Positions 1 to 41,734 of a stretch of 41,734 nt of DNA are shown here, piece after piece. Both the position numbers and the translations under genes were made by a program. The notes below the pieces were generated by a model. It saw only the letters and a list, made by a program, of their open reading frames with translations. It was not told the origin of the DNA and ran no database searches. Positions within the stretch are counted from its first letter, which is position 1; each line of letters opens with the position of its first letter. Source of the stretch: a virus; the IMG/VR virus record IMGVR_UViG_3300042465_002080, positions 1-41,734 of that record; one strand, written 5' to 3'.

Positions 1-66
1 GGAATCACCAATAAATACGATTTTTCTAAACCGCGACTTGATGACGCATTGAAAAAAAGGGGCTAA
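1..66 (+). CDS. C-terminal fragment of the HTH protein (cut by the window edge)
   Basis: The first 22 codons encode the last 21 residues, ending DDALKKRG then TAA, of the protein found complete at 37768-38166. It is a partial gene only because the linear window opens here; on the circular genome it is intact. Confidence 0.9.
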   Translation, partial: GITNKYDFSKPRLDDALKKRG

Positions 67-67
67 T

Positions 68-481
68 ATGGCAGTGATGAACGACTATAAGTGTCCGGCT
101 CACGGGTACTTTGAATCGCGTGAAGCGGTATGTCCTCATGGATGTACCGATGTACAAGTGGTTTTCTTGCAGCCTGTAGGTATGACAAGTGATCGTACCA
201 AGGGTAGCGATAAGACCCTGAAACAACTTGCACTGGACTTTAAGATGAGCGATGTGAAGTCTGTCAAACAAGGCGAAGCACAACCACCACGGTTTGCTAA
301 ACCAGATAATCCGTTTGCTCCGCGATGGGGTTCTCCGGGTGATCTTGGCGGCTTTAACTTGCGCTCTGTCGGAGGCGAAAACGTATCTGGCATTGGAGCA
401 GTGAAAGAAGGATCAAGACTTACGGGGCCGCGTGTTGGCAGTTATGTTGCTGACCATCAAAACCTAAAGATTGACAAATGA
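68..481 (+). CDS. Zn-ribbon-like protein upstream of portal
   Basis: A 137-aa protein of unknown function. Its N-terminus carries a possible zinc site: C9, H12, C22 and C26 in the pattern CPAH followed by CPHGC. A conserved-looking Gly/Pro-rich C-terminal part follows. The start ATG is preceded by AAAGGGGCTAAT, a ribosome-binding leader seen at several other genes here. The stop overlaps the portal start by 4 nt (ATGA), so it is probably translationally coupled to portal. Position between the terminase-side HTH gene and portal suggests a packaging or head-assembly accessory. That role is inference from context; zinc binding is inferred from Cys/His spacing only. Confidence 0.7.
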   Translation: MAVMNDYKCPAHGYFESREAVCPHGCTDVQVVFLQPVGMTSDRTKGSDKTLKQLALDFKMSDVKSVKQGEAQPPRFAKPDNPFAPRWGSPGDLGGFNLRSVGGENVSGIGAVKEGSRLTGPRVGSYVADHQNLKIDK

Positions 482-2121
482 GAATACCTACCGACCCATT
501 AGAACGCGAGATGTTCTACATGGACATTATGCAAAAGTGCATGGTGTCTATGGAAAGCAGACGCACAGAATCAGAAGGCTTGCGATCCTACTACCTGTTT
601 GGTGCAGGGCCAGAGGAAGCGCCAGCGCAATATAACAAAATCTTCCCGCACATAGATCAACTATCTGCGTTTATGTATGCAGCAGATTCTACACGCTTTT
701 CAATTAACATTGGGGCAAGCGAGTCTGAAGATTATCAGCGCATGGTTCCTGTTTTAACTAAGGCGCTCTACGATTATTGGTTAAATAGCAACGCAGATCA
801 AGTCTTTGGTCAAGCACTAAACTGGTCATTTTGCTACAACACCACCTTTGTGAAACCAGTTTGGCGCAATGGTATCCACCCGTACATGGTGGAACCCGCT
901 GCCATTGGCGTGTTGCGTGAAGACGTTCCGTACACGGATCGTCAAGAAGCGATGATTCAGCGCTACTACATGACCAAGAGCGAATTGTTCTCACGGCTGT
1001 GGTCGCATCCCAAGAGAGATGAATTGGTGCGCCGCATCACCTTCTCTCAGCAAGAAACGTCTGACAATGCTTCAGGTATGGATCGTGTGATTACGTCTGC
1101 AACCAATCCTACCATCTACGGAAACATTAACTTAAACCTCACTGGCGTAAACCGCTACGTGCCTATGATTGCCGAAGACACGGTGATGATGCACGAACTT
1201 TGGATTTACGATGATGAGATTGATGACTACCTATGCGTCACGATTGCTGACCCTAACGTAGTAATCTTTGACCGTGCGTCCAAGATGATGTTCTTGGAAG
1301 GAGAAGTGCCTTTCGTTCAAATTTCTCCCAATCCGCAGTACGACTACTACTGGGGGCAATCAGAAGTGCAACGCTTGATCTTCTTGCAAGACATGAGGAA
1401 TAAGCGCACCACTCAGATCATGCAATTGCTAGACAAACAGGTAGACCCACCCACGGTATTGCAAGGTTTTGGTGGTCTATTGGATGAGAAAACCTTTGCA
1501 TTGCGCCGTGCTGGTGGCCTATTGGCTAACGATATGCCCAACGGCAAGGTCGAACAGTTTGCTCCAGACATACCAAATGACATATTTCGTGAGATTGCTG
1601 AGATTGATGCCATGTTTGCGGAGGCTTCAGGTATCGTTTCCGTTCTGCAAGGCCGGGGTGAAAGTGGTGTTCGTAGTGCTGGACACGCCTCCCAACTGGC
1701 TCGACTCGGCTCTTCACGCGCTAAAAAACGCGCTTTGGTCATTGAAAGCGCCTTGGAGAAACTGGCAACCCTCTATCTGAAGATGATGATGGTATATGAC
1801 GATACCGTTTACGTTGATGAAAAGGGTAATAAGTTTATAGCCAAGCAGTTTACCGATGATTTCACAGTGAAAGTGGACGCGCACAGTAATAGTCCAATCT
1901 TCATGGAAGACCAGCGAGAGATGGCTTTCAGCCTGTATCAGGCCGGAACTATTAGCAAAGAGCGCTTGATCGAGATGATTGACCCGCCCATGAAGCAACA
2001 ACTGCTTGAAGACTTGAAAAAACAGACTCAAACTGTACAAACGCCTCAAAGCCCTGAGATTCCTCAAGGCCAAGAGCCAATCGCACCTCAACCGGGAGAG
2101 ATAGATGGCGGCCCTGCCTAA
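478..2121 (+). CDS. Portal protein (head-tail connector)
   Basis: A 547-aa protein with the size and position of a podovirus portal, which forms the dodecameric ring at the capsid vertex through which DNA is packaged and ejected. I recognise the family by the N-terminal region with a YYLFGAG segment, the central acidic/aromatic core with DPNVVIFDRASKM, the stretch around YWGQSEVQRLIFLQDMRNK typical of the portal stem/wing, and a Gln/Pro-rich disordered tail (about residues 510-547). Downstream of terL and upstream of scaffold-like and capsid genes is the standard gene order. The start overlaps the Zn-ribbon gene by 4 nt. A second identical copy lies in the terminal repeat. Confidence 0.85.
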   Translation: MRIPTDPLEREMFYMDIMQKCMVSMESRRTESEGLRSYYLFGAGPEEAPAQYNKIFPHIDQLSAFMYAADSTRFSINIGASESEDYQRMVPVLTKALYDYWLNSNADQVFGQALNWSFCYNTTFVKPVWRNGIHPYMVEPAAIGVLREDVPYTDRQEAMIQRYYMTKSELFSRLWSHPKRDELVRRITFSQQETSDNASGMDRVITSATNPTIYGNINLNLTGVNRYVPMIAEDTVMMHELWIYDDEIDDYLCVTIADPNVVIFDRASKMMFLEGEVPFVQISPNPQYDYYWGQSEVQRLIFLQDMRNKRTTQIMQLLDKQVDPPTVLQGFGGLLDEKTFALRRAGGLLANDMPNGKVEQFAPDIPNDIFREIAEIDAMFAEASGIVSVLQGRGESGVRSAGHASQLARLGSSRAKKRALVIESALEKLATLYLKMMMVYDDTVYVDEKGNKFIAKQFTDDFTVKVDAHSNSPIFMEDQREMAFSLYQAGTISKERLIEMIDPPMKQQLLEDLKKQTQTVQTPQSPEIPQGQEPIAPQPGEIDGGPA

Positions 2122-2284
2122 CCAACCAGAAGGAAACCTCCGCACCGGCGATCAGCCCCGTGCTACGGAAACATCCATCAAAGATACTGAACGAAGCATG
2201 GGAAGAATCTCTTATTCACGCCAAGCACAGCGTGGAGGGTTCCCCAAAACTTCATACGGGACACGTTACATGAGGAAATCATAA
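2105..2284 (+). CDS. Small basic protein overlapping the portal 3' end
   Basis: A 59-aa reading frame starting MAALPNQPEGN and ending GTRYMRKS. It starts 17 nt before the end of portal, behind GGGAGAG at suitable spacing. It fills a gap that otherwise has no gene and is basic in its C-terminal half (Arg/Lys, QRGGFPKTSYGTRYM). I do not recognise a family. Overlapping start, a good ribosome site and filling the gap between structural genes support a real gene; function is unknown. Confidence 0.6.
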   Translation: MAALPNQPEGNLRTGDQPRATETSIKDTERSMGRISYSRQAQRGGFPKTSYGTRYMRKS

Positions 2285-2317
2285 GTGGCGAAAATGCAGT
2301 CACGCCCTTTTTTTTGG

Positions 2318-2347
2318 TTGACACTATAGTTTGTCTCAATTGAAAAT
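2318..2347 (+). promoter_or_regulatory. Candidate sigma70-type promoter ahead of scaffold/capsid genes
   Basis: A perfect -35 hexamer TTGACA (2318-2323) is followed after 18 bp by GAAAAT (2342-2347), a 4/6 match to the -10 consensus. It lies in the roughly 90-bp gap before the 2375 gene, where a boost of capsid-gene transcription is plausible. The same bases contain TGACACTATAG, which equals the core of the SP6-phage promoter, but no phage-type RNA polymerase gene is visible, so the host-type reading is preferred. Confidence 0.4.
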
Positions 2348-2374
2348 CCGCACATCATAGGAACAGGATTACAT

Positions 2375-2794
2375 ATGGCTGTTTCAAGCAAAGAAATGAT
2401 GGATATGCTCAAGTCTGAGCAACCACAACCGACACCTCCTCCCAACGAGCAGGCCAGCCAGACTGCGCCTATGCCATCCCCAATGACCACGCCTGAGCCA
2501 CAGTCGGGCAACATGGAGCAAGCACGTTTGAACGTGATGATGGCGCTCGATATGATCCAGAACGCCTTGCAGACCTTTGGCCTTGAGTCCGAAGAGGGCA
2601 TGGCACTTCAGGATGTTGTTGGAAAGATTACGGCAAAATTCGGAGAGCGTGAGTCTGATACCCGTCAACTCATGCCAGCAGAGATCATGAATTTGATTCA
2701 AACCTTGCCGCAGGCGGGTGGTGCAACCCCTGAAGCAAGGGCAGTCGCAGCAGCACCAGCACCCGGAACTCAACAACCTCCATTACCCATTTAA
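2375..2794 (+). CDS. Pro/Gln/Met-rich head-assembly-region protein
   Basis: A 139-aa protein with a disordered Pro/Gln-rich N-terminus (about residues 14-48), a central predicted helical part (about 49-115, including MALDMIQNALQTFGLE) and an Ala/Pro-rich tail. Low complexity at both ends with a helical middle is common in scaffold or chaperone-like phage proteins. It lies between portal and the scaffold-like gene. No family recognised; head-assembly role is inferred from location. Confidence 0.65.
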   Translation: MAVSSKEMMDMLKSEQPQPTPPPNEQASQTAPMPSPMTTPEPQSGNMEQARLNVMMALDMIQNALQTFGLESEEGMALQDVVGKITAKFGERESDTRQLMPAEIMNLIQTLPQAGGATPEARAVAAAPAPGTQQPPLPI

Positions 2795-2804
2795 GGAGAA
2801 GTAA

Positions 2805-2990
2805 ATGGAACTCTTCAAACCACGTGGCAATCTGGCTCCGCGCCGACCCACAGATAACACTCAGCAGAACGGTCAAATCGTCAACACTCCGCGCTTTGCA
2901 GAGTTTGGCGGCTTAACTGCTCCAAACAAAATTGGCCCCAAGAACAAAATGACTCTTGGTAAGCCGGGTGACGGTAAAAAAGTCATCTAA
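2805..2990 (+). CDS. Small basic protein of the head module
   Basis: A 61-aa protein, strongly basic and Pro/Asn/Gly-rich, ending GKPGDGKKVI. AAGGAG lies just upstream of the ATG. It sits 10 bp after the previous stop and 22 bp before the scaffold-like gene. No recognised domain. Composition suggests an extended or disordered peptide, possibly DNA- or capsid-binding; that is inference only. Confidence 0.6.
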   Translation: MELFKPRGNLAPRRPTDNTQQNGQIVNTPRFAEFGGLTAPNKIGPKNKMTLGKPGDGKKVI

Positions 2991-3012
2991 TTGACAGAAA
3001 GGGGCTAACAAA

Positions 3013-3543
3013 ATGTCATTAGAGAATTTATCCGTAGAAGCACAACAAGAGTTGGCAATGCTTGCAAAGACTTTGGCTGAAGACCCAAAGACGCGCAGAT
3101 CATTTCTTCAACTTACTAAGCAAGTACGCCCGGATGTTCCAATCCCTGAGATTGAAATTGAAGAGCGTACTAACTCAGTCCTTCAGCAAGCCGAAGACCG
3201 TGTTAAGTCTTTAGAAGACAAACTACGGGCTAAGGAAGCGCGGGAAGAGTTAACAAAACGCCGCGATACCCTAGTCAAGAAGGGTCTTGTCGAGTCCGAA
3301 GACGAAATCAAGGAAGTCGAGAAGATCATGGTTGAAAAAGGTATTGCAAATCACGAAACCGCTGCTGAATACCATTCGTGGATGAAGCAAGCGGCAGCGC
3401 CTACACCATCGCAGTTTCCGCAGCCCGTAATGTCGAAGTTTAATACCAAGGATTTTATGAAGAATCCTGTTGGTGCGGCACGTGACGCGGCTCATGCAGC
3501 ATTAAGCGAATTTAGGAAAAATCCGAAGCCTATTGGCTTTTGA
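3013..3543 (+). CDS. Candidate scaffolding protein
   Basis: A 176-aa highly charged helical protein directly upstream of the major capsid gene, the usual position for scaffold. Residues about 50-110 are dense in Glu/Lys/Arg with heptad-like spacing (for example VLQQAEDRVKSLEDKLRAKE), consistent with a coiled coil. A Pro/Gln linker (about 130-140) precedes a basic C-terminal helix ending EFRKNPKPIGF, like the basic capsid-binding tails of podovirus scaffolds. Assignment rests on size, composition and position, not on a sequence-family match I can verify. Confidence 0.6.
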   Translation: MSLENLSVEAQQELAMLAKTLAEDPKTRRSFLQLTKQVRPDVPIPEIEIEERTNSVLQQAEDRVKSLEDKLRAKEAREELTKRRDTLVKKGLVESEDEIKEVEKIMVEKGIANHETAAEYHSWMKQAAAPTPSQFPQPVMSKFNTKDFMKNPVGAARDAAHAALSEFRKNPKPIGF

Positions 3544-3552
3544 TTTTATTGG
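3526..3552 (+). terminator. Weak hairpin before the capsid gene
   Basis: AAGCC (3526-3530) and GGCTT (3535-3539) can form a 5-bp hairpin with a TATT loop, followed by the T-rich TTGATTTTATT. It overlaps the scaffold-like stop codon. It may reduce read-through or stabilise the capsid mRNA 5' end; it is too weak to call a full terminator with confidence. Confidence 0.22.
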
Positions 3553-3581
3553 TTTAGGGGCTTTTTTCTAGGAGATTAAAA

Positions 3582-4583
3582 ATGCCTATTGGCGGAGGAA
3601 TTATACCGGCCTCTGGGAGTCAACAATACACGGAACTTACGTATGTAACGCGCCGTGCGTTTATTCCCAAGATGGTCGTGCAGATTTACAACTCTACGCC
3701 CCTCATGGCTGCACTGATCGCCAATAGTCAAACCGCTTCCGGCGGTGTGTCATCGGTGACTGTGCCTGTCCAAGGGTCACAGTTTGTTAACGCTCAGTGG
3801 TCGGATTACTCCGGCTCCTTTGCACAGCCTAGCGTACAGCAGGGCGCTTACAACGCGGAATTCAACCTGAAACTTCTAGTTTCTCCGGTTCCTTTCCTCG
3901 GCATGGAAGGCGCAGTGCAGCAAGATTACGCCATCATCCCGTTGATCGAAGCACGTATGAACGATGCGACCAACGTAATGATGGACGCAATGGCTACCTC
4001 GCTCTACACAAATACGTCTGACACTCAGCAGTTTACGGGCTTGCCTATCGCTGTTGACTCATCGGGTACATACGGCAATATCAGCCGTAGCCAGTATTCG
4101 TGGTGGGCTTCTAAGGAATACGCTGCTGGTTCGGTTAACCCGACCCGTCAGAACGTACTCCAGTACATCTCCGGTACCGTTAAGAACTGCGCTGAAGTAC
4201 CTACTTTCGGCGTTTGCGGCTTTGGTACTTGGACGCTTCTGGCTCAAGACTACGTAGGCCAAGAACAGTACATGATTACTCCGGGTTCCGGATTTGATGC
4301 TGATGCCAATGGCCCACAGGCTGCGTTCCGCGCCCTGATGGTTGCTGGCGTTCCTATCTATCCTGATCCGTACTGCCCAGAAGGTACTCTGTACCTATTG
4401 AACACAAACTATCTGTCCATGTACATCCATGAGCAGGCTTCGTTTGCGTTCACTGGCTTTGAATCGACTCTGCCAAACTTCCAGATTGGTTACGTTGGCG
4501 CGGTTCTGATGATTGCCGAAATGGTAAGCACCAAGCCTAAGTCGATGACCAAAGTGACTGGCTACAACTCTTTGACACTGTAA
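3582..4583 (+). CDS. Major capsid protein
   Basis: A 333-aa protein with the length, position and character of an HK97-fold podovirus capsid subunit. It has an N-terminal arm of about 60 residues, a Trp/Tyr-rich region (QWSDYSG), a loop with GLPIAVDSSGTYGNISRSQ, and a C-terminal segment around STKPKSMTKVTG. It is preceded by CTAGGAGATTAAAA and followed by two decoration-like genes. It forms the icosahedral shell around DNA packaged through the portal. The fold is inferred from family resemblance and context. The first 53 bp recur at the end of the window. Confidence 0.82.
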   Translation: MPIGGGIIPASGSQQYTELTYVTRRAFIPKMVVQIYNSTPLMAALIANSQTASGGVSSVTVPVQGSQFVNAQWSDYSGSFAQPSVQQGAYNAEFNLKLLVSPVPFLGMEGAVQQDYAIIPLIEARMNDATNVMMDAMATSLYTNTSDTQQFTGLPIAVDSSGTYGNISRSQYSWWASKEYAAGSVNPTRQNVLQYISGTVKNCAEVPTFGVCGFGTWTLLAQDYVGQEQYMITPGSGFDADANGPQAAFRALMVAGVPIYPDPYCPEGTLYLLNTNYLSMYIHEQASFAFTGFESTLPNFQIGYVGAVLMIAEMVSTKPKSMTKVTGYNSLTL

Positions 4584-25138: not shown

Positions 25139-25379
25139 ATTTGAGTTTGTTTACCTGATCGCAGATCACGCCTGCGACTAGCGCACGTTCCTCTGCTGTG
25201 CCATCAATCATCTTGCAGATCACGCGATCATTCTCAGTAATGATCTCAAGACTGCCATCCCTGCGCGACATAACAGCCCAAGGAAGTTGACACATATCGA
25301 CAACCCATTGCGGTTCGCTACCAACTTCATGCTCCCACCTCTGACGGTCATCATCGATTTCATCTTGTAATGTAGTCAT
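25137..25379 (-). CDS. Small acidic protein at the end of the leftward unit
   Basis: An 80-aa protein starting MTTLQDEIDDDRQRWEHEVG behind GGAGCCAAAGA. Charged, with two Trp-containing segments and a Cys-containing C-terminal helix. Overlaps the upstream glycosyltransferase gene by 20 nt. No family recognised; its place after recombination and sugar genes gives little clue. Confidence 0.6.
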   Translation of the reverse strand: MTTLQDEIDDDRQRWEHEVGSEPQWVVDMCQLPWAVMSRRDGSLEIITENDRVICKMIDGTAEERALVAGVICDQVNKLK

Positions 25380-26121
25380 TCTTTGGCTCCGGTGTTTCCA
25401 CTAATTGTCCTGAAAAATTGTAAGTGCCAAAGTGTCCAATCTTGCACCAAGGCGCTGCCCATACTTTGCCACCATGTTTGCGCCACTCATGGCAAAAGTG
25501 GTAATCTTCACTCAGAAGCCGCTTGCTTTCAGGGTCTATGCTTTCCGTAAAAAACCTGTAGACAGGCTTGCCTCCGGGCATATGACTCATATCGTTTCTG
25601 AATATTGGTGTGTGTTCAATCATCTTTTCGAACACCTCACGCTTAATCAACATGATCCCAGTGCCACCAGCAGCCACTTCAAACGGCTGGTTCTGAGGCA
25701 CGGAGATGCTGCCTGCTCCGTCCAGTAGGTTCACGACAAAGGAGCCTGTGAACTTAGACAAGTCCTTTTCACCGCGTATGGCAGCGTCCCGTACCGTATT
25801 CCAATTGATCTCTTTCTTGGGACACATACCTACAATGATCTCCTTGTCTGCCATCAGCATATGGTATAGGTCAGAGCCACGCCACTGCTGGTCTGCGTCA
25901 ATGAATAGTAGGTGTGTGTTATCAGTCTCTAGGAACTGGCTGACCAAGTTGTTTCTAGCCCGTGTGATCAGGCTCTCATTAAACATGAAAGCGCATGATA
26001 GTTTGATTCCGTGGCTGGTCAATACATTGCTCATGTCTAGCAATGACTGCACAAAAACTCCCGTACACATTCCACCGTACATTGGCGTAGCCAAAAAAAT
26101 TCTAGGTTTTTGCTCTTCCAT
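25360..26121 (-). CDS. GT-A glycosyltransferase-like protein
   Basis: A 253-aa protein from the ATG at 26121, chosen because GGAG lies 5 nt upstream and the conserved domain begins there (KPRIFLATPMYGGM). The motif LLFIDADQQW with D75 and D77 is a DxD metal/sugar-nucleotide site. GGTGIMLIKREVFEKM and EDYHFCHEWRKHGG follow, as in family-2-like GT-A enzymes. It would transfer a sugar from a nucleotide-sugar donor. With the dTDP-glucose dehydratase and a second GT in the same operon it suggests phage-encoded glycosylation of DNA, virion protein or host surface; acceptor unknown. Confidence 0.7.
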   Translation of the reverse strand: MEEQKPRIFLATPMYGGMCTGVFVQSLLDMSNVLTSHGIKLSCAFMFNESLITRARNNLVSQFLETDNTHLLFIDADQQWRGSDLYHMLMADKEIIVGMCPKKEINWNTVRDAAIRGEKDLSKFTGSFVVNLLDGAGSISVPQNQPFEVAAGGTGIMLIKREVFEKMIEHTPIFRNDMSHMPGGKPVYRFFTESIDPESKRLLSEDYHFCHEWRKHGGKVWAAPWCKIGHFGTYNFSGQLVETPEPKNDYITR

Positions 26122-26138
26122 ATGATCTCCGTATTGGT

Positions 26139-26164
26139 GGGGGATGACCGAAACACTGTCCCCC
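26139..26164 (-). other. Intercistronic hairpin
   Basis: GGGGGA (26139-26144) and TCCCCC (26159-26164) form a 6-bp stem with a 14-nt loop in the 52-bp gap between the nuclease and glycosyltransferase genes. There is no U tract, so mRNA stability or processing is more likely than termination. Confidence 0.35.
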
Positions 26165-26173
26165 GTCAATGTC

Positions 26174-26536
26174 CTAATCGCCATCCTTTGCGGAAGGCTG
26201 CACCTCGGTCTGTGCGGGGGGTAATTCGTTCCCCAAAAATTTCAACATATCCTCCCACCGTACCAATGCAAGCGACTTCTCTCCGTCTGCTCGCATCACC
26301 ACGATGGGAGTCTGCCCCTCTTTACATGATGCTTCTGCCTGCTTCATAAACTCATACACAGCAATCTTGCGGCGGCGCTTGCACTCGATCACGAACTGCT
26401 CAAGGATGATGTCACCCTCGCCAGCCTCTTGATATTGCACTAGGTTACGTCTGGTCTTATAGCCAAGGATCATGTACAAATCATTGACTATATCTCTTTC
26501 GTACTGCGCTCCACGCTGACGCTGTAACTTGCCCAT
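26174..26536 (-). CDS. Holliday-junction-resolvase-like PD-(D/E)xK nuclease
   Basis: A 120-aa protein with the pattern of archaeal Hjc-like and phage PDDEXK nucleases: an N-terminal helix with E13 in GAQYERDIVN, RRNLVQYQEAGEGDI carrying D42, FVIECKRRRKIAV with E51 and K53 as the ExK part, and FMKQAE beyond. It would cut branched recombination intermediates. A TAATG junction (1-nt overlap) couples it to the secreted Cys-rich gene. Function inferred from motif and from neighbouring RecT-like, YqaJ and SSB-like genes. Confidence 0.72.
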   Translation of the reverse strand: MGKLQRQRGAQYERDIVNDLYMILGYKTRRNLVQYQEAGEGDIILEQFVIECKRRRKIAVYEFMKQAEASCKEGQTPIVVMRADGEKSLALVRWEDMLKFLGNELPPAQTEVQPSAKDGD

Positions 26537-26685
26537 TAGAAACAGGTCGTGTTGCAGTTACCGTTGTAGCAGCAGGTCGTACACATAATAAACTTACCAC
26601 CTGAGTTTACAGTGTGCGTAGTGCAATTAGCGTAAACTGCGCCAGCAAACGTCAAACCGATCACCGCCATAAAAATTTTTGTCAT
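26536..26685 (-). CDS. Small secreted Cys-rich protein
   Basis: A 49-aa frame with an N-terminal signal peptide (MTKIFMAVIGLTFAGAVYA, likely cut after A19) and a 30-residue mature part holding C21, C35, C38, C39, C44 and C48, with the pattern CTTCCYNGNC then C at 48. It is preceded by TAAGGGG and overlaps the next start through TAATG, so it is a real coupled gene. Six cysteines in so short a protein suggest disulphides or a metal site in the periplasm. Function unknown; the operon is otherwise cytoplasmic DNA metabolism. Confidence 0.7.
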   Translation of the reverse strand: MTKIFMAVIGLTFAGAVYANCTTHTVNSGGKFIMCTTCCYNGNCNTTCF

Positions 26686-26697
26686 TTTTGATTCCCC

Positions 26698-26985
26698 TTA
26701 AAAAGGCACATCGTCATCCAAGTCATCAACTGACTTGCTCGGAACTGGCTGCACGTTCTGCTTGTAGCCGGGATCGGGCTTCCAGTTATCTTCCTTAAGG
26801 CTAATCAATGGCCCCTTGGCAGATTGCTTAGTCCACGCTGCTATCTTCACTACCTCACCAGCAGTGTAGTCACGTTCTAGTTTCAATTCTCCCTTCCAAT
26901 CGGGGCCACTACCTGTCTCACCTTTCTTGTGATTGGTGAACAATACCCCAGTGCCTGCCTGTCGTTCTTGTGGTTGATACGCCAT
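26698..26985 (-). CDS. SSB-like protein with acidic tip
   Basis: A 95-aa protein from ATG 26985, behind AAAGGAAAG; a longer frame starts upstream without support. The body has GVLFTNHKKGETGSGPDW, GEVVKIAAWTKQSAKGPLISLKED, a small beta pattern common in short phage single-strand-binding-like proteins. It ends DDLDDDVPF, which is nearly the DDDIPF tip of bacterial SSB that recruits repair proteins. It probably coats ssDNA for the annealing protein coded upstream. The tip is visible; DNA binding is inferred. Confidence 0.65.
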   Translation of the reverse strand: MAYQPQERQAGTGVLFTNHKKGETGSGPDWKGELKLERDYTAGEVVKIAAWTKQSAKGPLISLKEDNWKPDPGYKQNVQPVPSKSVDDLDDDVPF

Positions 26986-26986
26986 C

Positions 26987-27214
26987 TTACTTTCCTTTCG
27001 CCAAATGATAACGGGCAAACGTCTTCCCGTTTTGTTTTACATCTTCCGTAATTATGTTATGCCCTGCCTTACGCAGGTCATCGATCCTTGCTGCCAACCT
27101 TGCACAGCCAAATAAACTCAAAGCGTTCATTGCGGTTAGGCTATTACCCTTAGTTAAATAATTCAAAATCTCTCCGTTCTGAGTGCGCTTTGTGTTCTTT
27201 GCTACCTGCTCCAA
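26987..27214 (-). CDS. Winged-helix DNA-binding protein (HTH_39-like)
   Basis: A 75-aa protein starting at TTG 27214, 11 nt after the previous stop. The pattern GEILNYLTKGNSLTAMNAL followed by CARLAARIDDLRKAGHNI matches the HTH_39 winged-helix family: two short helices, a recognition helix rich in Arg, then a wing (TFARYHL). Possibly a regulator of the recombination operon or an accessory to its nucleases. No visible strong ribosome site, so coupling is likely. Confidence 0.65.
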   Translation of the reverse strand: MEQVAKNTKRTQNGEILNYLTKGNSLTAMNALSLFGCARLAARIDDLRKAGHNIITEDVKQNGKTFARYHLAKGK

Positions 27215-27225
27215 GATTGGCTGGA

Positions 27226-28047
27226 TTACTTTGGGAGTGCGTCACTCGCTGCCTTGAGTAAACCTGCCGTGATCCGGTCTGCAATTTCTACGTGTACGCC
27301 TTTCAAAAGGCTCTGAGTGGCTTCGTTGGCAGAGATAAGGTCACTGATCTTCTGCACCTTCTCTTCTGCCGCTAGTTTCTTGGAGTCCAGAATCTTGATG
27401 CCCATCTTCTCAAAGGCGGCTAAGTAGTCATCCTCGTTCTGATGGTAAGAGTACGGCTCATCCGATCCGGGTAACAGTAGCGCCCAATCACCTTGTGGCT
27501 CAGAGATAACCGTAGGGATTGGCTCTGCCTGCGGTATTACGATACTTTCCTTACTGGCATTAGGGATTGTCTCGACTTCGGTTTCGTCCAGCATCCCAAG
27601 TCCACAGTGAGCAAGCACTGATCTGCGTATTGCTTTGGTAGTGCATTTAAGCACTGCGTTAGCAAGGGCATCCCCTCTAAGTCCTCCGATGCTAACAGCG
27701 CCTTGATTTTCGCTAGAGCGTCCATCAGCCCCGGTAACTCTGACCGAGACAACGTAAATATCATCCACCCGTTCTTTATTCGTAATTTGAGTTGAGAGTC
27801 GATGGAGGTTACAGAGTTGTTGCGTGGCTCCCGCGTTGGCATATAGCACCTGCTTTCCTGATAGGTTCAGCAGGTCAAACGGTTTGGCGCTAGGGTCTAG
27901 GCCAATCTGCTTGCAGCGATAGTTGTAATACTGCACCTTCTGAACTTGGTTTAGCCCCGACAAGTCCCCTTTGGTTACGATAGATTCGATAATCGCTGGA
28001 TCAATAACAGCGACTTCACCCTTTGGCATACTGATTACGTTACTCAT
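27226..28047 (-). CDS. RecT-like single-strand annealing protein
   Basis: A 273-aa protein that resembles the widespread phage annealing family. Key stretches are YYNYRCKQIGLDPSAKPFDLL, GKQVLYANAGATQQL, and the conserved GLRGDALANAVLKCTTKAIR followed by CGLGMLDETEVE. Such proteins pair with a 5'-3' exonuclease; the YqaJ gene lies 10 nt upstream. It would anneal ssDNA during phage recombination. Identification is from family memory and operon partner, not from a search. A GAGGGGCTAAAT leader precedes the ATG. Confidence 0.72.
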   Translation of the reverse strand: MSNVISMPKGEVAVIDPAIIESIVTKGDLSGLNQVQKVQYYNYRCKQIGLDPSAKPFDLLNLSGKQVLYANAGATQQLCNLHRLSTQITNKERVDDIYVVSVRVTGADGRSSENQGAVSIGGLRGDALANAVLKCTTKAIRRSVLAHCGLGMLDETEVETIPNASKESIVIPQAEPIPTVISEPQGDWALLLPGSDEPYSYHQNEDDYLAAFEKMGIKILDSKKLAAEEKVQKISDLISANEATQSLLKGVHVEIADRITAGLLKAASDALPK

Positions 28048-28057
28048 ATTTAGCCCC

Positions 28058-28960
28058 TCATTTGATTAAGAACCGGCGTGATCCGGGTTGTTCTACTACG
28101 AACTTCTCATAAGTCTCTGGCAATGCCTTCTTCAACAACTCAGCATTGAACTTCTTACTAGACTTACTGGTTTTCCAAGTGGCTAGGATCGAGCCATCAA
28201 AGGCTTTCAATGTAGCCTTGGACAGCATGGCTGCTTGAATCATTTCCTTCAAGCCTTCCTCGGCCTCTTCGTACTCTTTCATCTTGGCCTTGATCTGCCC
28301 TAACTGCTGGCAGGCTAACTCAAGCGCAGCATTGGCTACCATGTCCTGACCATCATCCACCTTGTAGATGTCCTTGGTAACGTCAGCCATCGTCTGCGGG
28401 TTCCAGTTTTTAGTCTGCACCTGCGCCCAGAACTCAGCCATAGCCCGGATGTGAGCCTCTGCCTCTAGTTGTGTGAAGTTTTGCGGGAAGTGGCATAACT
28501 CTTGACCGCCAAACAGAACCACCAAGACTATGTTCTGCACCCCCTCATGCACAATCTGCTCGTGCATACACTGAGCGCGATACTTCTCAGAAACCATCTC
28601 AGTGCCATCATCGCCATACTTCTTGCGCTGGTGTACGCCGAGGTTCTTGACCTCGTAGAGCGTCTTGCCATCGGATGAGATGTAGTCAAAGTGGGATGCC
28701 AGCCAGTTGTGCTTTGGGTGTCTGAGCGCATAGTCTGCGTCTTTGAACTCCCAACCCCATCGGCCTGCTGCGATCCGCATGATTGGTTCTTGCAGGTGCA
28801 AGCCCATCTGTACTGGTTCTACGTCTGATAGATCAGGCTTTTCCCGCTGCCCAATCTTGGTAAGGTAAACCTCTCCACCCTTACCTTCTGCAATCATGCC
28901 TGCATCTGATGACCAGATAGCCTGATCGCGTACTGCCAAGTCTGCTTCGCTTAGTGCCAT
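28058..28960 (-). CDS. YqaJ-family (lambda-Exo-like) viral exonuclease
   Basis: A 300-aa protein with the YqaJ recombinase core: E58 in LHLQEPIM, D92 in SHFDYISSDGK, then E103 and K105 in LYEVKNLG as the catalytic D...ExK, and a helix with Y127, Q130 and Q135. The C-terminal 90 residues form helices with EEAEEGLKEMIQAAMLSK and end GSRRFLIK. It would digest 5' strands at DNA ends and load the annealing protein. Start supported by a GAGGGGGCTGAT leader. Confidence 0.78.
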   Translation of the reverse strand: MALSEADLAVRDQAIWSSDAGMIAEGKGGEVYLTKIGQREKPDLSDVEPVQMGLHLQEPIMRIAAGRWGWEFKDADYALRHPKHNWLASHFDYISSDGKTLYEVKNLGVHQRKKYGDDGTEMVSEKYRAQCMHEQIVHEGVQNIVLVVLFGGQELCHFPQNFTQLEAEAHIRAMAEFWAQVQTKNWNPQTMADVTKDIYKVDDGQDMVANAALELACQQLGQIKAKMKEYEEAEEGLKEMIQAAMLSKATLKAFDGSILATWKTSKSSKKFNAELLKKALPETYEKFVVEQPGSRRFLIK

Positions 28961-29775: not shown

Positions 29776-29973
29776 TTACACCTCGTCTATCGTGACCTTC
29801 ACACGCACTGGTATAGCCTTGAGTTTAACCCAGTAGGGGTTGTCTTCAAGCCATGCAGCGGCGTGGTTACGGGTACGAAATAGCAGGGTCTTGAGTGGCT
29901 GTGTAGGGTCAGACAAGTCTTGTACAAAGCCACGCTGGTACTGCAAAGCCCAACATAGTTTCTTCATAGCCAT
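29776..29973 (-). CDS. Small basic/aromatic protein
   Basis: A 65-aa protein, MAMKKLCWALQYQRGF at its start behind GGGAGAATAAAA, ending VRVKVTIDEV. It looks like a small phage beta/alpha protein with a PTQPLKTLLFRTRNHAAAW core. It overlaps the dTDP-glucose dehydratase stop by 10 nt. Function unknown. Confidence 0.58.
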   Translation of the reverse strand: MAMKKLCWALQYQRGFVQDLSDPTQPLKTLLFRTRNHAAAWLEDNPYWVKLKAIPVRVKVTIDEV

Positions 29974-30968
29974 TTTTTATTCTCCCTAAACCAGCCGCAA
30001 ACGCGCCAAAGTGTATCGGTCACGCTCTTTGGCTTCCAGCCAAGACTCTCCATCAATGAGCCATCCAAGGCATATCTCAGGTCGTGTCCGGGCCTGCTGG
30101 AGTGAAAGTCCACCATTTCGTAGGACAGTTTCTTATGCAGAATCATGGATATGGCTTCAGCCATCATCAGGTTATCCCATTCCTCGCTGCCAACGATGTT
30201 GAACTTCGGGCATTTGGCACCACCGTAATCGTTCTCAATTTCAGGATTATTGGTGAGCAAAAATAGCAATGCGTCTGCTACTTCTCTTGCATGGATGTAG
30301 TGCCTAGAACCTGCCTTGCTCTTATCCGCATTGGAGTGGATAGTGATTGTCTCGCCTGCCAATGCCTTACGGATACACATTGGGATGAACTTCTCTGGCG
30401 ATTGACGCTCACCAAATACGTTCATGGTGTGTGTAATGTATATCGGTAGACCGTATGTATTCTGATAGGCCACGGCAAACTCTTCACCACCTGCCTTGCT
30501 TGCGGAGTAAGGATTGGTGCAGTTGTAGCGGTCACGCTCCTTGTACTTGATCCCTTCCGGTGCTGGCCCAAACACCTCATCGGTGCTGAAGTAGATAAAG
30601 CGCTTTAGGTCTTGGGTACGGGCAAAGTCTAGGATATTCACCGTTCCTATGACGTTATCCATCGCAAACTCAAGCGGATGGTCAATAGATCGGTCTACAT
30701 GGCTTCCAGCCGCTAGGTGCAAGATGATGTCTACCTTCCCAATATGGGCGGCTACGTGTGGATTTATAGCCGCTTTGAGGTCGTGGTGAACCACCTTGAC
30801 GCGCCCTGTCGCTTGAGGCATTTGCTTTAGCGCATCGCTTAAACGGTTCAGATTGCCTGAGTAATCCAGCCGATCAAGGCTTATGACCTGCCAATCTGTG
30901 CGCTCTAGCAAGTAAGCAATAACGTGATGCCCAATAAATCCGGCACCACCAGTGACTAAAACTCTCAT
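29964..30968 (-). CDS. rmlB: dTDP-glucose 4,6-dehydratase
   Basis: A 334-aa SDR enzyme from ATG 30968 (GGAGGGGCGAGA leader). It converts dTDP-glucose to dTDP-4-keto-6-deoxy-glucose, the first shared step to deoxysugars such as rhamnose. Motifs: GGAGFIG (7-13) for NAD, HLAAGSHVDRSI (84-95), catalytic T129-D130-E131 in STDEVFG, and Y154-x3-K158 in NPYSASKAG. Later SRHYIHAREVADAL and RPGHDLRYALD are typical of RmlB. No RmlA, C or D homologues are visible, so host enzymes or intermediates are needed. It overlaps a small TM gene upstream. Confidence 0.85.
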   Translation of the reverse strand: MRVLVTGGAGFIGHHVIAYLLERTDWQVISLDRLDYSGNLNRLSDALKQMPQATGRVKVVHHDLKAAINPHVAAHIGKVDIILHLAAGSHVDRSIDHPLEFAMDNVIGTVNILDFARTQDLKRFIYFSTDEVFGPAPEGIKYKERDRYNCTNPYSASKAGGEEFAVAYQNTYGLPIYITHTMNVFGERQSPEKFIPMCIRKALAGETITIHSNADKSKAGSRHYIHAREVADALLFLLTNNPEIENDYGGAKCPKFNIVGSEEWDNLMMAEAISMILHKKLSYEMVDFHSSRPGHDLRYALDGSLMESLGWKPKSVTDTLWRVCGWFRENKKWL

Positions 30969-31093
30969 TTCTCGCCCCTCCAGATCAAGATAGCCACGAT
31001 GATAAAGAATATCATCACAGCCCACGCTATGCCCTGAGCCGCGTCTGCTGCCTGTTGGGTTCTCAGCCACCAATCATAGTTAGAGGGGTTCAT
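30965..31093 (-). CDS. 42-aa single-TM protein
   Basis: A frame starting MNPSNYDWWLRTQQAADAA, then a strongly hydrophobic segment (IAWAVMIFFIIVAILIW) and RGEK. Its start overlaps the previous stop (ATGA) and its stop overlaps the dehydratase ATG, exactly filling the gap. Small membrane anchors of this type occur in many phage operons; role unknown. Confidence 0.62.
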   Translation of the reverse strand: MNPSNYDWWLRTQQAADAAQGIAWAVMIFFIIVAILIWRGEK

Positions 31094-32706: not shown

Positions 32707-33594
32707 CTAGGCCGCTAACGGCATTTCTTCGCTAGATTCTTGCTTTGCTTTGCCGCCATTTATTAGCCAATCCATACCGGCCTGCGCTTTACCTGCCGCG
32801 CTAATAATGAATTTTTTGTCATTCTTGAGCGCTTTGAGCCATGATTCAATATAGGCCGCATGGCGTAAATCCCCGTCTAGGCCGCAATGAGCGCAAAGCA
32901 TGGCCGCGCCAAGTTCCGCGATTAGTTCCTCATAGGCGTAGGCATGATCGCCAAAGCGCTTACCCTTTTCACGATTCAAGCGTGATTCATGGCCTGTAGC
33001 ATGAATCGCCTCATGTAATAGGGTAGCGTAGTAGTTTTCCCGGCTAGAAAACTGGGCCTTTTCCGGCATATGGATCGAATCATTAGACGGGCGGAAAAAC
33101 GCCTCATTTCCGCCATGATGCAGGCCGCCGGATAGTTTCAAAGTATCGGTTAGCGCTTGTGCCTTGTCGCATGGCTCCCATGATTCGGGCGCTATCTCTT
33201 CGCGTACTGGTAGGGAAACGTCTTCGCATTGATCTAGATTGAACACGTAGTAGTGTTTAAGCATAGGCACGTGCGTTATTTGATCGGGGTTAGTCTTATC
33301 TTTTACAGCCAAGGGTTTCCAGAAAACAATGGGAGTACCCTTTTCGCCTGTTTTGATATTGCCGCCCAGTGCTTGTGCTTGTTTGAACGTAACCCATGCA
33401 TTGCTGGTAAAGGTAGAACCCATAAGGGTCAAGAATGTCCAGTTAGCGCCACGATAGACTGTACCGCTAGCAGGGTTCCATGGTTGGCCGTTGTGCTTGC
33501 CATTTCTAACGTTTTTCCATGGTTTAACCCATGGGGCAGTGCCGTTTTCTAATTCAGTAATGATCCGATCAGTAATTACTTGTGCAATGTCCAT
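32707..33594 (-). CDS. ArdC-type antirestriction protein
   Basis: A 295-aa protein from ATG 33594 (AAAGGGG upstream). The N-terminal ssDNA-binding domain of the ArdC family is recognisable: ITELENGTAPWVKPW, YRGANWTFL, WVTFKQAQALGGNIKTGEK and GTPIVFWKP. The C-terminal zincin-like domain has HEAIH (194-198), H202 and a YEELIAELGA helix carrying the likely third ligand E227. ArdC proteins protect incoming DNA from restriction, best known from plasmids. It lies in its own leftward unit next to the divergent promoter region, fitting very early expression. Confidence 0.82.
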   Translation of the reverse strand: MDIAQVITDRIITELENGTAPWVKPWKNVRNGKHNGQPWNPASGTVYRGANWTFLTLMGSTFTSNAWVTFKQAQALGGNIKTGEKGTPIVFWKPLAVKDKTNPDQITHVPMLKHYYVFNLDQCEDVSLPVREEIAPESWEPCDKAQALTDTLKLSGGLHHGGNEAFFRPSNDSIHMPEKAQFSSRENYYATLLHEAIHATGHESRLNREKGKRFGDHAYAYEELIAELGAAMLCAHCGLDGDLRHAAYIESWLKALKNDKKFIISAAGKAQAGMDWLINGGKAKQESSEEMPLAA

Positions 33595-33595
33595 G

Positions 33596-33766
33596 TTATT
33601 TGACCCCTTTAGCAAAAAAGATTGATCGAATGGCGGCATAGCGTGAAGCGCCCATGTCGCGCAGTTTCCAATAGGCATAGCGCGTGCCATATAGCGCGAT
33701 AGTGGATCTAAGCGTTAGCGGATTGCTCTCATAATTTAATGCGTGGTTTACAAGCGTTTTGTGCAT
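33596..33766 (-). CDS. 56-aa first gene of the ArdC unit
   Basis: A frame starting MHKTLVNHALNYESNPLTLR and ending RSIFFAKGVK behind a good ATAGGGGTAACAAA leader. It ends 1 nt before the ArdC start. Basic/aromatic, helical middle (YGTRYAYWKLRDMGASRYAA). A longer frame overlapping it in another phase is judged a shadow because ArdC has its own better start. Function unknown. Confidence 0.62.
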   Translation of the reverse strand: MHKTLVNHALNYESNPLTLRSTIALYGTRYAYWKLRDMGASRYAAIRSIFFAKGVK

Positions 33767-37767: not shown

Positions 37768-38166
37768 ATGGATACGGTTCTGACTAAACAAGACATCATC
37801 CGCAGGCTTGAGGCCATGCGCTCTAAACGTAAGCGCGGATTTACCATGCGTATGTTCGCTTCCTTTGCCGCCATAGGCTATCGGCACATGGAATCCATAA
37901 CCCGTGACGGATCAAGCACCTTTACTGAACTGACTCAGCGCAAACTAAGTAAGGCGCTCCTAGCCTTGGAAAAAGGCGAGGCTGGCCCAAGAATAGACAT
38001 TCTGGGGCGCAAGTTTATTGACTACCACCCAAGGGCTAAACCAGTTTTGAAGCGCGGGATGGGGATAGAAATGACCCCCTTGGGCATCAAAATGAAGGTA
38101 GGAATCACCAATAAATACGATTTTTCTAAACCGCGACTTGATGACGCATTGAAAAAAAGGGGCTAA
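37768..38166 (+). CDS. HTH protein next to terL (possible small terminase)
   Basis: A 132-aa basic protein. Residues about 20-70 look like a helix-turn-helix: FTMRMFASFAAIGYRHMESI, then TELTQRKLSKALLALEKGE. It is followed by a basic Pro/Lys/Gly tail that resembles flexible C-termini of small terminases. It sits between terL and the Zn-ribbon/portal genes. A small-terminase role is possible but it lies after terL rather than before, so a DNA-binding accessory is equally likely. Confidence 0.55.
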   Translation: MDTVLTKQDIIRRLEAMRSKRKRGFTMRMFASFAAIGYRHMESITRDGSSTFTELTQRKLSKALLALEKGEAGPRIDILGRKFIDYHPRAKPVLKRGMGIEMTPLGIKMKVGITNKYDFSKPRLDDALKKRG

Positions 38167-38167
38167 T

Positions 38168-38581
38168 ATGGCAGTGATGAACGACTATAAGTGTCCGGCT
38201 CACGGGTACTTTGAATCGCGTGAAGCGGTATGTCCTCATGGATGTACCGATGTACAAGTGGTTTTCTTGCAGCCTGTAGGTATGACAAGTGATCGTACCA
38301 AGGGTAGCGATAAGACCCTGAAACAACTTGCACTGGACTTTAAGATGAGCGATGTGAAGTCTGTCAAACAAGGCGAAGCACAACCACCACGGTTTGCTAA
38401 ACCAGATAATCCGTTTGCTCCGCGATGGGGTTCTCCGGGTGATCTTGGCGGCTTTAACTTGCGCTCTGTCGGAGGCGAAAACGTATCTGGCATTGGAGCA
38501 GTGAAAGAAGGATCAAGACTTACGGGGCCGCGTGTTGGCAGTTATGTTGCTGACCATCAAAACCTAAAGATTGACAAATGA
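38168..38581 (+). CDS. Zn-ribbon-like protein (repeat copy)
   Basis: Identical to 68-481. Confidence 0.7.
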   Translation: MAVMNDYKCPAHGYFESREAVCPHGCTDVQVVFLQPVGMTSDRTKGSDKTLKQLALDFKMSDVKSVKQGEAQPPRFAKPDNPFAPRWGSPGDLGGFNLRSVGGENVSGIGAVKEGSRLTGPRVGSYVADHQNLKIDK

Positions 38582-40221
38582 GAATACCTACCGACCCATT
38601 AGAACGCGAGATGTTCTACATGGACATTATGCAAAAGTGCATGGTGTCTATGGAAAGCAGACGCACAGAATCAGAAGGCTTGCGATCCTACTACCTGTTT
38701 GGTGCAGGGCCAGAGGAAGCGCCAGCGCAATATAACAAAATCTTCCCGCACATAGATCAACTATCTGCGTTTATGTATGCAGCAGATTCTACACGCTTTT
38801 CAATTAACATTGGGGCAAGCGAGTCTGAAGATTATCAGCGCATGGTTCCTGTTTTAACTAAGGCGCTCTACGATTATTGGTTAAATAGCAACGCAGATCA
38901 AGTCTTTGGTCAAGCACTAAACTGGTCATTTTGCTACAACACCACCTTTGTGAAACCAGTTTGGCGCAATGGTATCCACCCGTACATGGTGGAACCCGCT
39001 GCCATTGGCGTGTTGCGTGAAGACGTTCCGTACACGGATCGTCAAGAAGCGATGATTCAGCGCTACTACATGACCAAGAGCGAATTGTTCTCACGGCTGT
39101 GGTCGCATCCCAAGAGAGATGAATTGGTGCGCCGCATCACCTTCTCTCAGCAAGAAACGTCTGACAATGCTTCAGGTATGGATCGTGTGATTACGTCTGC
39201 AACCAATCCTACCATCTACGGAAACATTAACTTAAACCTCACTGGCGTAAACCGCTACGTGCCTATGATTGCCGAAGACACGGTGATGATGCACGAACTT
39301 TGGATTTACGATGATGAGATTGATGACTACCTATGCGTCACGATTGCTGACCCTAACGTAGTAATCTTTGACCGTGCGTCCAAGATGATGTTCTTGGAAG
39401 GAGAAGTGCCTTTCGTTCAAATTTCTCCCAATCCGCAGTACGACTACTACTGGGGGCAATCAGAAGTGCAACGCTTGATCTTCTTGCAAGACATGAGGAA
39501 TAAGCGCACCACTCAGATCATGCAATTGCTAGACAAACAGGTAGACCCACCCACGGTATTGCAAGGTTTTGGTGGTCTATTGGATGAGAAAACCTTTGCA
39601 TTGCGCCGTGCTGGTGGCCTATTGGCTAACGATATGCCCAACGGCAAGGTCGAACAGTTTGCTCCAGACATACCAAATGACATATTTCGTGAGATTGCTG
39701 AGATTGATGCCATGTTTGCGGAGGCTTCAGGTATCGTTTCCGTTCTGCAAGGCCGGGGTGAAAGTGGTGTTCGTAGTGCTGGACACGCCTCCCAACTGGC
39801 TCGACTCGGCTCTTCACGCGCTAAAAAACGCGCTTTGGTCATTGAAAGCGCCTTGGAGAAACTGGCAACCCTCTATCTGAAGATGATGATGGTATATGAC
39901 GATACCGTTTACGTTGATGAAAAGGGTAATAAGTTTATAGCCAAGCAGTTTACCGATGATTTCACAGTGAAAGTGGACGCGCACAGTAATAGTCCAATCT
40001 TCATGGAAGACCAGCGAGAGATGGCTTTCAGCCTGTATCAGGCCGGAACTATTAGCAAAGAGCGCTTGATCGAGATGATTGACCCGCCCATGAAGCAACA
40101 ACTGCTTGAAGACTTGAAAAAACAGACTCAAACTGTACAAACGCCTCAAAGCCCTGAGATTCCTCAAGGCCAAGAGCCAATCGCACCTCAACCGGGAGAG
40201 ATAGATGGCGGCCCTGCCTAA
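38578..40221 (+). CDS. Portal protein (repeat copy)
   Basis: Identical to 478-2121. Confidence 0.85.
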   Translation: MRIPTDPLEREMFYMDIMQKCMVSMESRRTESEGLRSYYLFGAGPEEAPAQYNKIFPHIDQLSAFMYAADSTRFSINIGASESEDYQRMVPVLTKALYDYWLNSNADQVFGQALNWSFCYNTTFVKPVWRNGIHPYMVEPAAIGVLREDVPYTDRQEAMIQRYYMTKSELFSRLWSHPKRDELVRRITFSQQETSDNASGMDRVITSATNPTIYGNINLNLTGVNRYVPMIAEDTVMMHELWIYDDEIDDYLCVTIADPNVVIFDRASKMMFLEGEVPFVQISPNPQYDYYWGQSEVQRLIFLQDMRNKRTTQIMQLLDKQVDPPTVLQGFGGLLDEKTFALRRAGGLLANDMPNGKVEQFAPDIPNDIFREIAEIDAMFAEASGIVSVLQGRGESGVRSAGHASQLARLGSSRAKKRALVIESALEKLATLYLKMMMVYDDTVYVDEKGNKFIAKQFTDDFTVKVDAHSNSPIFMEDQREMAFSLYQAGTISKERLIEMIDPPMKQQLLEDLKKQTQTVQTPQSPEIPQGQEPIAPQPGEIDGGPA

Positions 40222-40384
40222 CCAACCAGAAGGAAACCTCCGCACCGGCGATCAGCCCCGTGCTACGGAAACATCCATCAAAGATACTGAACGAAGCATG
40301 GGAAGAATCTCTTATTCACGCCAAGCACAGCGTGGAGGGTTCCCCAAAACTTCATACGGGACACGTTACATGAGGAAATCATAA
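40205..40384 (+). CDS. Small basic protein (repeat copy)
   Basis: Identical to 2105-2284. Confidence 0.6.
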   Translation: MAALPNQPEGNLRTGDQPRATETSIKDTERSMGRISYSRQAQRGGFPKTSYGTRYMRKS

Positions 40385-40417
40385 GTGGCGAAAATGCAGT
40401 CACGCCCTTTTTTTTGG

Positions 40418-40447
40418 TTGACACTATAGTTTGTCTCAATTGAAAAT
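40418..40447 (+). promoter_or_regulatory. Candidate promoter (repeat copy)
   Basis: Identical to 2318-2347. Confidence 0.4.
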
Positions 40448-40474
40448 CCGCACATCATAGGAACAGGATTACAT

Positions 40475-40894
40475 ATGGCTGTTTCAAGCAAAGAAATGAT
40501 GGATATGCTCAAGTCTGAGCAACCACAACCGACACCTCCTCCCAACGAGCAGGCCAGCCAGACTGCGCCTATGCCATCCCCAATGACCACGCCTGAGCCA
40601 CAGTCGGGCAACATGGAGCAAGCACGTTTGAACGTGATGATGGCGCTCGATATGATCCAGAACGCCTTGCAGACCTTTGGCCTTGAGTCCGAAGAGGGCA
40701 TGGCACTTCAGGATGTTGTTGGAAAGATTACGGCAAAATTCGGAGAGCGTGAGTCTGATACCCGTCAACTCATGCCAGCAGAGATCATGAATTTGATTCA
40801 AACCTTGCCGCAGGCGGGTGGTGCAACCCCTGAAGCAAGGGCAGTCGCAGCAGCACCAGCACCCGGAACTCAACAACCTCCATTACCCATTTAA
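40475..40894 (+). CDS. Pro/Gln-rich protein (repeat copy)
   Basis: Identical to 2375-2794. Confidence 0.65.
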   Translation: MAVSSKEMMDMLKSEQPQPTPPPNEQASQTAPMPSPMTTPEPQSGNMEQARLNVMMALDMIQNALQTFGLESEEGMALQDVVGKITAKFGERESDTRQLMPAEIMNLIQTLPQAGGATPEARAVAAAPAPGTQQPPLPI

Positions 40895-40904
40895 GGAGAA
40901 GTAA

Positions 40905-41090
40905 ATGGAACTCTTCAAACCACGTGGCAATCTGGCTCCGCGCCGACCCACAGATAACACTCAGCAGAACGGTCAAATCGTCAACACTCCGCGCTTTGCA
41001 GAGTTTGGCGGCTTAACTGCTCCAAACAAAATTGGCCCCAAGAACAAAATGACTCTTGGTAAGCCGGGTGACGGTAAAAAAGTCATCTAA
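40905..41090 (+). CDS. Small basic head-module protein (repeat copy)
   Basis: Identical to 2805-2990. Confidence 0.6.
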   Translation: MELFKPRGNLAPRRPTDNTQQNGQIVNTPRFAEFGGLTAPNKIGPKNKMTLGKPGDGKKVI

Positions 41091-41112
41091 TTGACAGAAA
41101 GGGGCTAACAAA

Positions 41113-41643
41113 ATGTCATTAGAGAATTTATCCGTAGAAGCACAACAAGAGTTGGCAATGCTTGCAAAGACTTTGGCTGAAGACCCAAAGACGCGCAGAT
41201 CATTTCTTCAACTTACTAAGCAAGTACGCCCGGATGTTCCAATCCCTGAGATTGAAATTGAAGAGCGTACTAACTCAGTCCTTCAGCAAGCCGAAGACCG
41301 TGTTAAGTCTTTAGAAGACAAACTACGGGCTAAGGAAGCGCGGGAAGAGTTAACAAAACGCCGCGATACCCTAGTCAAGAAGGGTCTTGTCGAGTCCGAA
41401 GACGAAATCAAGGAAGTCGAGAAGATCATGGTTGAAAAAGGTATTGCAAATCACGAAACCGCTGCTGAATACCATTCGTGGATGAAGCAAGCGGCAGCGC
41501 CTACACCATCGCAGTTTCCGCAGCCCGTAATGTCGAAGTTTAATACCAAGGATTTTATGAAGAATCCTGTTGGTGCGGCACGTGACGCGGCTCATGCAGC
41601 ATTAAGCGAATTTAGGAAAAATCCGAAGCCTATTGGCTTTTGA
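41113..41643 (+). CDS. Candidate scaffolding protein (repeat copy)
   Basis: Identical to 3013-3543. Confidence 0.6.
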   Translation: MSLENLSVEAQQELAMLAKTLAEDPKTRRSFLQLTKQVRPDVPIPEIEIEERTNSVLQQAEDRVKSLEDKLRAKEAREELTKRRDTLVKKGLVESEDEIKEVEKIMVEKGIANHETAAEYHSWMKQAAAPTPSQFPQPVMSKFNTKDFMKNPVGAARDAAHAALSEFRKNPKPIGF

Positions 41644-41681
41644 TTTTATTGGTTTAGGGGCTTTTTTCTAGGAGATTAAAA

Positions 41682-41734
41682 ATGCCTATTGGCGGAGGAA
41701 TTATACCGGCCTCTGGGAGTCAACAATACACGGA
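41682..41734 (+). CDS. Major capsid protein, 5' fragment (cut by window edge)
   Basis: The first 53 bp of the capsid gene, identical to 3582-3634; truncated only by the end of the window. Confidence 0.9.
   Translation, partial: MPIGGGIIPASGSQQYT

Follow-up and report, generated by a model that had tools for sequence, protein, structure and literature searches.

Among phages, a few coliphages are so far known to make proteins with a periplasmic site of action. Llp of phage T5, a small lipoprotein produced early, jams FhuA from the periplasmic side (PMC9586334). Rtp45 (~6 kDa) shares a β-sheet with LptD, to whose periplasmic face it binds (PMC12685063). The mini-protein family described here resembles the superinfection-exclusion lipoproteins T5 Llp and Cor, which are very small exported phage proteins, are expressed early in T5 and contain an intramolecular disulfide. 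It is also close to Rtp45 in its mass of about 6 kDa and its predicted periplasmic location, the β-sheet with the target being a feature of Rtp45. Llp, Cor and Rtp45 are lipidated, whereas the new family lacks a lipobox and carries three likely disulfides. The llp gene adjoins a receptor-binding gene in T5 and the Rtp45 gene has another genome position, whereas the genes considered here lie in recombination or replication operons. Comparison of the A3 profile with PDB sequences gave chance matches to the signal peptide alone and no link to the solved members of the Llp, Cor and Rtp45 group. By lipobox, sequence and gene position, the new proteins fall outside this class.

The window, i.e., the entire stretch of DNA analyzed here (41,734 nt; IMG/VR record IMGVR_UViG_3300042465_002080), contains bases 1–3634 as an exact repeat at 38101–41734. 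The record is a circular genome of 38,100 bp read past its start, and genes within the 3634-base repeat occur twice in it. The nearest terminases are from two Manatee Spring records (72%), followed by a Hydrogenobaculum phage (34%). The gene of interest encodes a protein with six cysteines and lies on the minus strand within a recombination operon, in a position that we call the slot (Table 1). No tRNA genes were found in the window phage. Two further genes, one resembling nucleotide-sugar epimerases or GDP-mannose dehydratases and one resembling glycosyltransferases, may alter host surface sugars, and an ArdC-type antirestriction protein with a metallopeptidase domain is encoded in the same gene block.

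Table 1 Features of the window around the six-cysteine gene, with the matches or properties on which the labels are based.
Feature	Coordinates	Strand	Match or property
Glycosyltransferase-like gene	25360-26184	-	PHROG 1574; weak Anp1
PDDEXK/RusA-like resolvase gene, behind the slot	26174..26536	-	PHROG 244 "RusA-like Holliday junction resolvase", 5e-19; Pfam PDDEXK_15
49-aa six-cysteine mini-protein (CTTCC family), predicted to be exported	26536..26685	-	large conserved viral family; TAATG overlap with next start
Mature 30-aa peptide, predicted three-stranded β-meander (21-28, 31-40, 43-48)	26539..26628	-	AlphaFold2, mean pLDDT 91.7
Signal peptide, residues 1-19, predicted cleavage VYA/NC	26629..26685	-	basic (K/R) n-region followed by a hydrophobic core; A at -1 (117/117)
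SSB-like protein, acidic C-terminal tip DDDVPF, before the slot	26698..26988	-	PHROG 18154 single strand DNA binding protein, 2.1e-5
Winged-helix HTH_39 protein	26987..27214	-	Pfam PF14090, 5.4e-14
RecT/Rad52-type annealing protein (tentative)	27226..28047	-	weak Rad52 match, 0.023; adjoins exonuclease
RecE/YqaJ-like recombination exonuclease	28058..28960	-	PHROG 434, 1.7e-39; Pfam YqaJ, 6.7e-5
Nucleotide-sugar epimerase/GDP-mannose dehydratase-like gene	29964-31073	-	PHROG 540, 2.7e-103
ArdC-type antirestriction protein with metallopeptidase domain	32707-33690	-	upstream end of minus-strand gene block

The product of the six-cysteine ORF is MTKIFMAVIGLTFAGAVYANCTTHTVNSGGKFIMCTTCCYNGNCNTTCF. 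The ORF has the ribosome-binding site GGGGA and starts 12 nt past the stop of the SSB-like gene; at its other end, in TTCTAATGGG, stop codon and following ATG overlap. An initial annotation of the window, made from the sequence alone, had pointed to a signal peptide, six cysteines within 30 mature residues and TAATG coupling to a resolvase-like gene. All of these are present in the ORF, with the six cysteines falling in the 30 residues that follow VYA, and the downstream gene matches a resolvase and a nuclease family.

Searching viral contigs in IMG/VR with successively broader queries, we confirmed 76, 459 and finally 563 relatives, the last number being a lower bound on family size. This is far beyond chance and establishes a real viral family. 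The homologs retain both the signal peptide and the cysteines; a lack of such homologs had been named in the initial annotation as a refutation. The spacing C-x13/14-CxxCC-x4/5-C-x3-C is kept in all complete members inspected, and ten residues (A19, C21, C35, T36, T37, C38, C39, C44, T46, and C48) are invariant over 105 gap-free genes. For the same genes, dN/dS is 0.09 in the mature part and 0.20 in the signal peptide.

The protein of the window has no match in Pfam, PHROGs, NCBIfam, PADLOC or PDB, and 36 family members searched against PHROGs yielded weak, scattered matches alone (best 0.0085). Matches of the single sequence to HIV gp120 vanished with the family profile and reflect chance similarity in composition. 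A text search of the literature for the motif returned nothing relevant. Among phage and plasmid records, the family appeared only in the two uncultured Manatee Spring records; in MW202462 (L141:755-898) and at the matching place in MW202544, an antisense ORF is annotated and the intact six-cysteine gene was missed. A search of 84,980 species genomes gave one match, located right where a contig of a Runella MAG ends and preceded by a phage-style Shine-Dalgarno sequence. We read it as a phage fragment or a chimera and rejected an origin of the gene from the host. The six-cysteine proteins thus form a large undescribed phage protein family with predicted export.

The export signal was evaluated over 117 distinct proteins. 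All have alanine at the predicted cleavage site, which is of the Ala-x-Ala type, and nearly all have a basic start and an acid-free hydrophobic core, as is typical of signal peptidase I substrates. A strict lipobox is found in none of the 117, and a loose lipobox pattern fits 28; nearly all members have Y or W three positions ahead of the cysteine, often with N in front of it. The invariant alanine and the lack of a strict lipobox fit signal peptidase I and not a lipoprotein, so that membership among lipoproteins was ruled out for the whole family. One member is already present in UniProt and BFVD, A0A6J5M8Q5 from an uncultured Caudovirales phage (49 aa, 48% identical). Its name, "Lipoprotein", probably stems from a loose-pattern annotation. 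Judged by these signals, the mature peptide is predicted to reside in the periplasm.

Structure prediction with AlphaFold2 gave a three-stranded β-meander for the mature peptide alone (45 sequences), and the full-length model (36 family sequences) has the same strands. The independent BFVD model of A0A6J5M8Q5 agrees with the mature fold within 0.4 Å. Two-residue turns at positions 29–30 and 41–42 connect the strands, facing residues sum to 59 and 83, and the predicted register places C21 opposite C38, C35 opposite C48 and C39 opposite C44. All length differences and indels in the family are confined to the two turns. Together with the sums of facing residues, this makes three cross-strand disulfides likely (C21-C38, C35-C48, and C39-C44), a pairing taken from the topology and not from coordinates. 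Comparison with PDB structures gave a best Z of 3.5, to generic unrelated three-strand segments, and other structure look-ups likewise returned generic three-strand hits, with the BFVD family member as the one exception. Rows of Thr-x-Thr on one face recall insect antifreeze proteins. We set an ice-binding function aside, as a periplasmic ice-binder makes little sense for a phage.

This topology also bears on the metal binding considered in the initial annotation. A thiol-active or metal-binding periplasmic peptide, used for metal capture or redox control, would accord with the six cysteines and their CxxCC motif and with weak matches to periplasmic metal proteins, though these lie mainly in the signal peptide. 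In the predicted register, however, each of the six cysteines faces another one across strands, and the sole histidine, His24, is present in 82 of 105 genes and hence not invariant. The other protein families that occupy the slot (see below) have four or two cysteines and no common ligand set. Metal binding is therefore disfavored, and we regard such a function as improbable.

To follow the gene among close relatives, we used 17 loci with readable downstream sequence, fetched by the SSB-like protein of the window. The peptide follows the SSB-like gene in 12 of them. At four sites (L221, L222, L229, and L232) the slot is empty and the SSB-like gene is joined directly to the nuclease gene, the flanking genes on both sides being retained; in L218 a different ORF comes first. 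In the alignment, the occupied joint reads SSB-F-TAA-[peptide]-F-TAATGGG, and three of the empty sites read SSB-F-TAATGGG, the fourth, L222, having a short spacer. Recombination at the short TTYTAA repeat found at either end could permit the peptide gene to be gained or lost. Peptide and neighbors also differ in their similarity between genomes: compared with the window, L228 has a peptide 96% identical next to a RecT-type protein at 76% and an SSB-like protein at 83%, and L217 has a peptide 90% identical with a RecT-type protein at 99.6% and an SSB-like protein at 99%. The six-cysteine gene is an accessory cassette that is swapped independently of its neighbors.

In 58 of 90 distinct loci, the peptide comes after a gene whose product has the acidic SSB tip, with a gap of 9–27 nt in nearly all of them. 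In a wider sample of 150 loci, this setting again accounts for 58, and the peptide gene is elsewhere in 84. The more distant members are mostly outside the SSB-tip setting, and the second common place is before a DUF1376 replication gene.

Other occupants of the slot were found through the loci of two further SSB-like proteins, which were fetched regardless of the peptide. For these upstream proteins, of 204 and 85 aa, the SSB-like label refers to the acidic DxPF tip and the place in the operon; among the three SSB-like types, only that of the window matched an SSB family. The occupants include a peptide of 42–43 aa with a CGGGGC motif and four cysteines (CWQQYVCGGGGCQWVTICR; fam2), a two-cysteine peptide of 47–66 aa with a VITC..CP pattern (fam3) and a lipoprotein of about 90–100 aa. 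Exported products were called in 42 of 127 slots fetched by SSB-like proteins and in 2 of 132 comparison genes (other small or window genes; Fisher p about 6e-13; deduplicated loci, with export called by a simple script and related contigs not being independent). Their share is uneven between the three SSB-like types (10/15, 5/65, and 27/47). The initial annotation had called such a peptide unexpected among early cytoplasmic genes; it turned out to be part of a recurrent arrangement, with many phages encoding exported mini-proteins behind their SSB-like genes.

When fam2 was fetched mostly on its own, the SSB tip preceded it in at least 42 of 61 loci. Each of the three unrelated SSB-like families occurs in combination with the six-cysteine family and also with fam2. 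The six-cysteine gene and fam2 were not found together: fam2 was absent from all 25 long contigs with a six-cysteine gene and a separate six-cysteine gene from all 20 with fam2, in contigs that may be incomplete, while the positive controls recovered the own family in 25/25 and 20/20. Weak matches of the A3 profile to two fam2 genes, which might have been taken for co-occurrence, were the fam2 genes themselves. fam2 (L408–L487, e.g., L408:2501-2629) is itself an undescribed exported family with a nearly invariant mature part. It has 95 confirmed relatives in viral contigs and no Pfam or PHROG match. In L318 and about 12 other loci, a slot lipoprotein of about 100 aa often comes after the CGGGGC peptide, hence exported genes can also stand in tandem in the slot.

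Gain and loss at this site resemble those at phage moron or accessory-gene hotspots, with clean insertion, intact flanks and swapping between relatives. In contrast to such hotspots, the present site lies within an operon, and it is exported mini-proteins that it has received time and again, behind SSB-like genes unrelated to each other. What is new is this gene setting, in which exported mini-proteins are exchanged at a slot that follows SSB-like genes. That the six-cysteine gene shares it with unrelated exported mini-proteins suggests a common job at the cell envelope. The wider proposition, that the slot is a dedicated periplasmic-effector position of freshwater phages in which at least four unrelated exported families interchange because they serve the same envelope job, appears to us possible, if somewhat short of an even chance.

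The peptide has no evident catalytic site, is exported by prediction, rigid, and conserved yet present or absent between relatives, and it is replaced by unrelated exported proteins. These properties point to a stoichiometric envelope effector. Our preferred reading, with a probability of about 0.42, is an early exported effector whose target would be a conserved component of the periplasm or outer membrane and whose role would most likely be superinfection exclusion. Encoded in a replication/recombination operon, the peptide would be an accessory phage effector. Translated right behind the SSB-like gene, it would probably be abundant, and we infer early and high expression. The Sec pathway would export it, cleavage would follow VYA, and oxidation would yield a rigid three-stranded sheet held by three cross-strand disulfides. 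In a Gram-negative host it might then bind a conserved envelope component, presumably in the periplasm, stoichiometrically and not as an enzyme. The most likely benefit, and the most tentative step, would be that the infected cell or its debris is closed to further phages, as with T5 Llp or Rtp45. Superinfection exclusion is well documented for phage products of this kind and is the leading, though unproven, reading of the benefit. The 84 of 150 loci without a preceding SSB-tip gene count against this explanation, as does the contrast with the known exclusion lipoproteins, which are lipidated and encoded beside the receptor-binding gene. So does the strong conservation of the mature sequence across hundreds of phages, since a blocker of varied receptors might itself vary.

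The same conservation speaks for a target common to many hosts and makes interference with a conserved assembly machine the main rival. According to this alternative, the β-meander docks as an extra strand on BAM, Lpt or a similar machine and alters envelope physiology without a role in superinfection. The extremely conserved mature part, the edge-strand fold of the AlphaFold2 model and the β-sheet that Rtp45 forms with LptD agree with it. The last residue of the peptide is aromatic (F/Y) in 100 of 105 genes, which resembles outer-membrane β-signals. Yet the C-terminal F is replaced by I, V or M in some members, and the TTYTAA end seems also to owe its form to junction microhomology with the SSB stop. 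We consider such an envelope takeover rather unlikely, although well ahead of the remaining alternatives.

The gene setting also bears on a function in lysis. A periplasmic protein that sets the time of lysis, similar to a spanin or an antiholin, would be small, exported and encoded once per genome, as the six-cysteine protein is by prediction, and a relative of the slot lipoprotein in the cultured Limnohabitans phage DC33 has weak matches to Rz-type spanins, probably due to its lipobox. The six-cysteine family lacks a lipobox, however; its gene belongs to a recombination operon on the strand opposite to the holin-like and M15 endolysin genes of the window, and it is entirely missing in many relatives. 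A lysis factor is accordingly a poor candidate. Release by lysis leads to a further idea, a public peptide acting outside on neighboring cells or debris. The fold is compact and likely protease-resistant, lysis would set the peptide free, and exclusion proteins are also thought to guard against adsorption to debris (PMC9586334). But nothing points to release or surface activity and a periplasmic role is simpler, which leaves this idea as improbable as metal binding.

The effector reading assumes a Gram-negative host. In DC33, a phage isolated from freshwater, the RecE-RecT operon closes with the gene for the relative of the slot lipoprotein, so that for the group of the window phage a Gram-negative host from freshwater is plausible. 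DC33 is also a cultured relative of the slot to start with, and the compact 30-residue fold is useful for target fishing. With a family present in hundreds of uncultured virus contigs and a genomic address at which unrelated exported mini-proteins interchange, the function of tiny secreted ORFs becomes testable, and a rule for finding more follows, namely to look behind SSB-tip genes. If our reading of the slot is true, it would help to find further exported phage effectors, a large class so far unseen. The record of DC33 (PQ492659; L488) carries the taxonomy line Inoviridae, yet it is 39 kb long and has RecE, RecT and peptidase genes; this filing is probably a wrong taxonomy entry.
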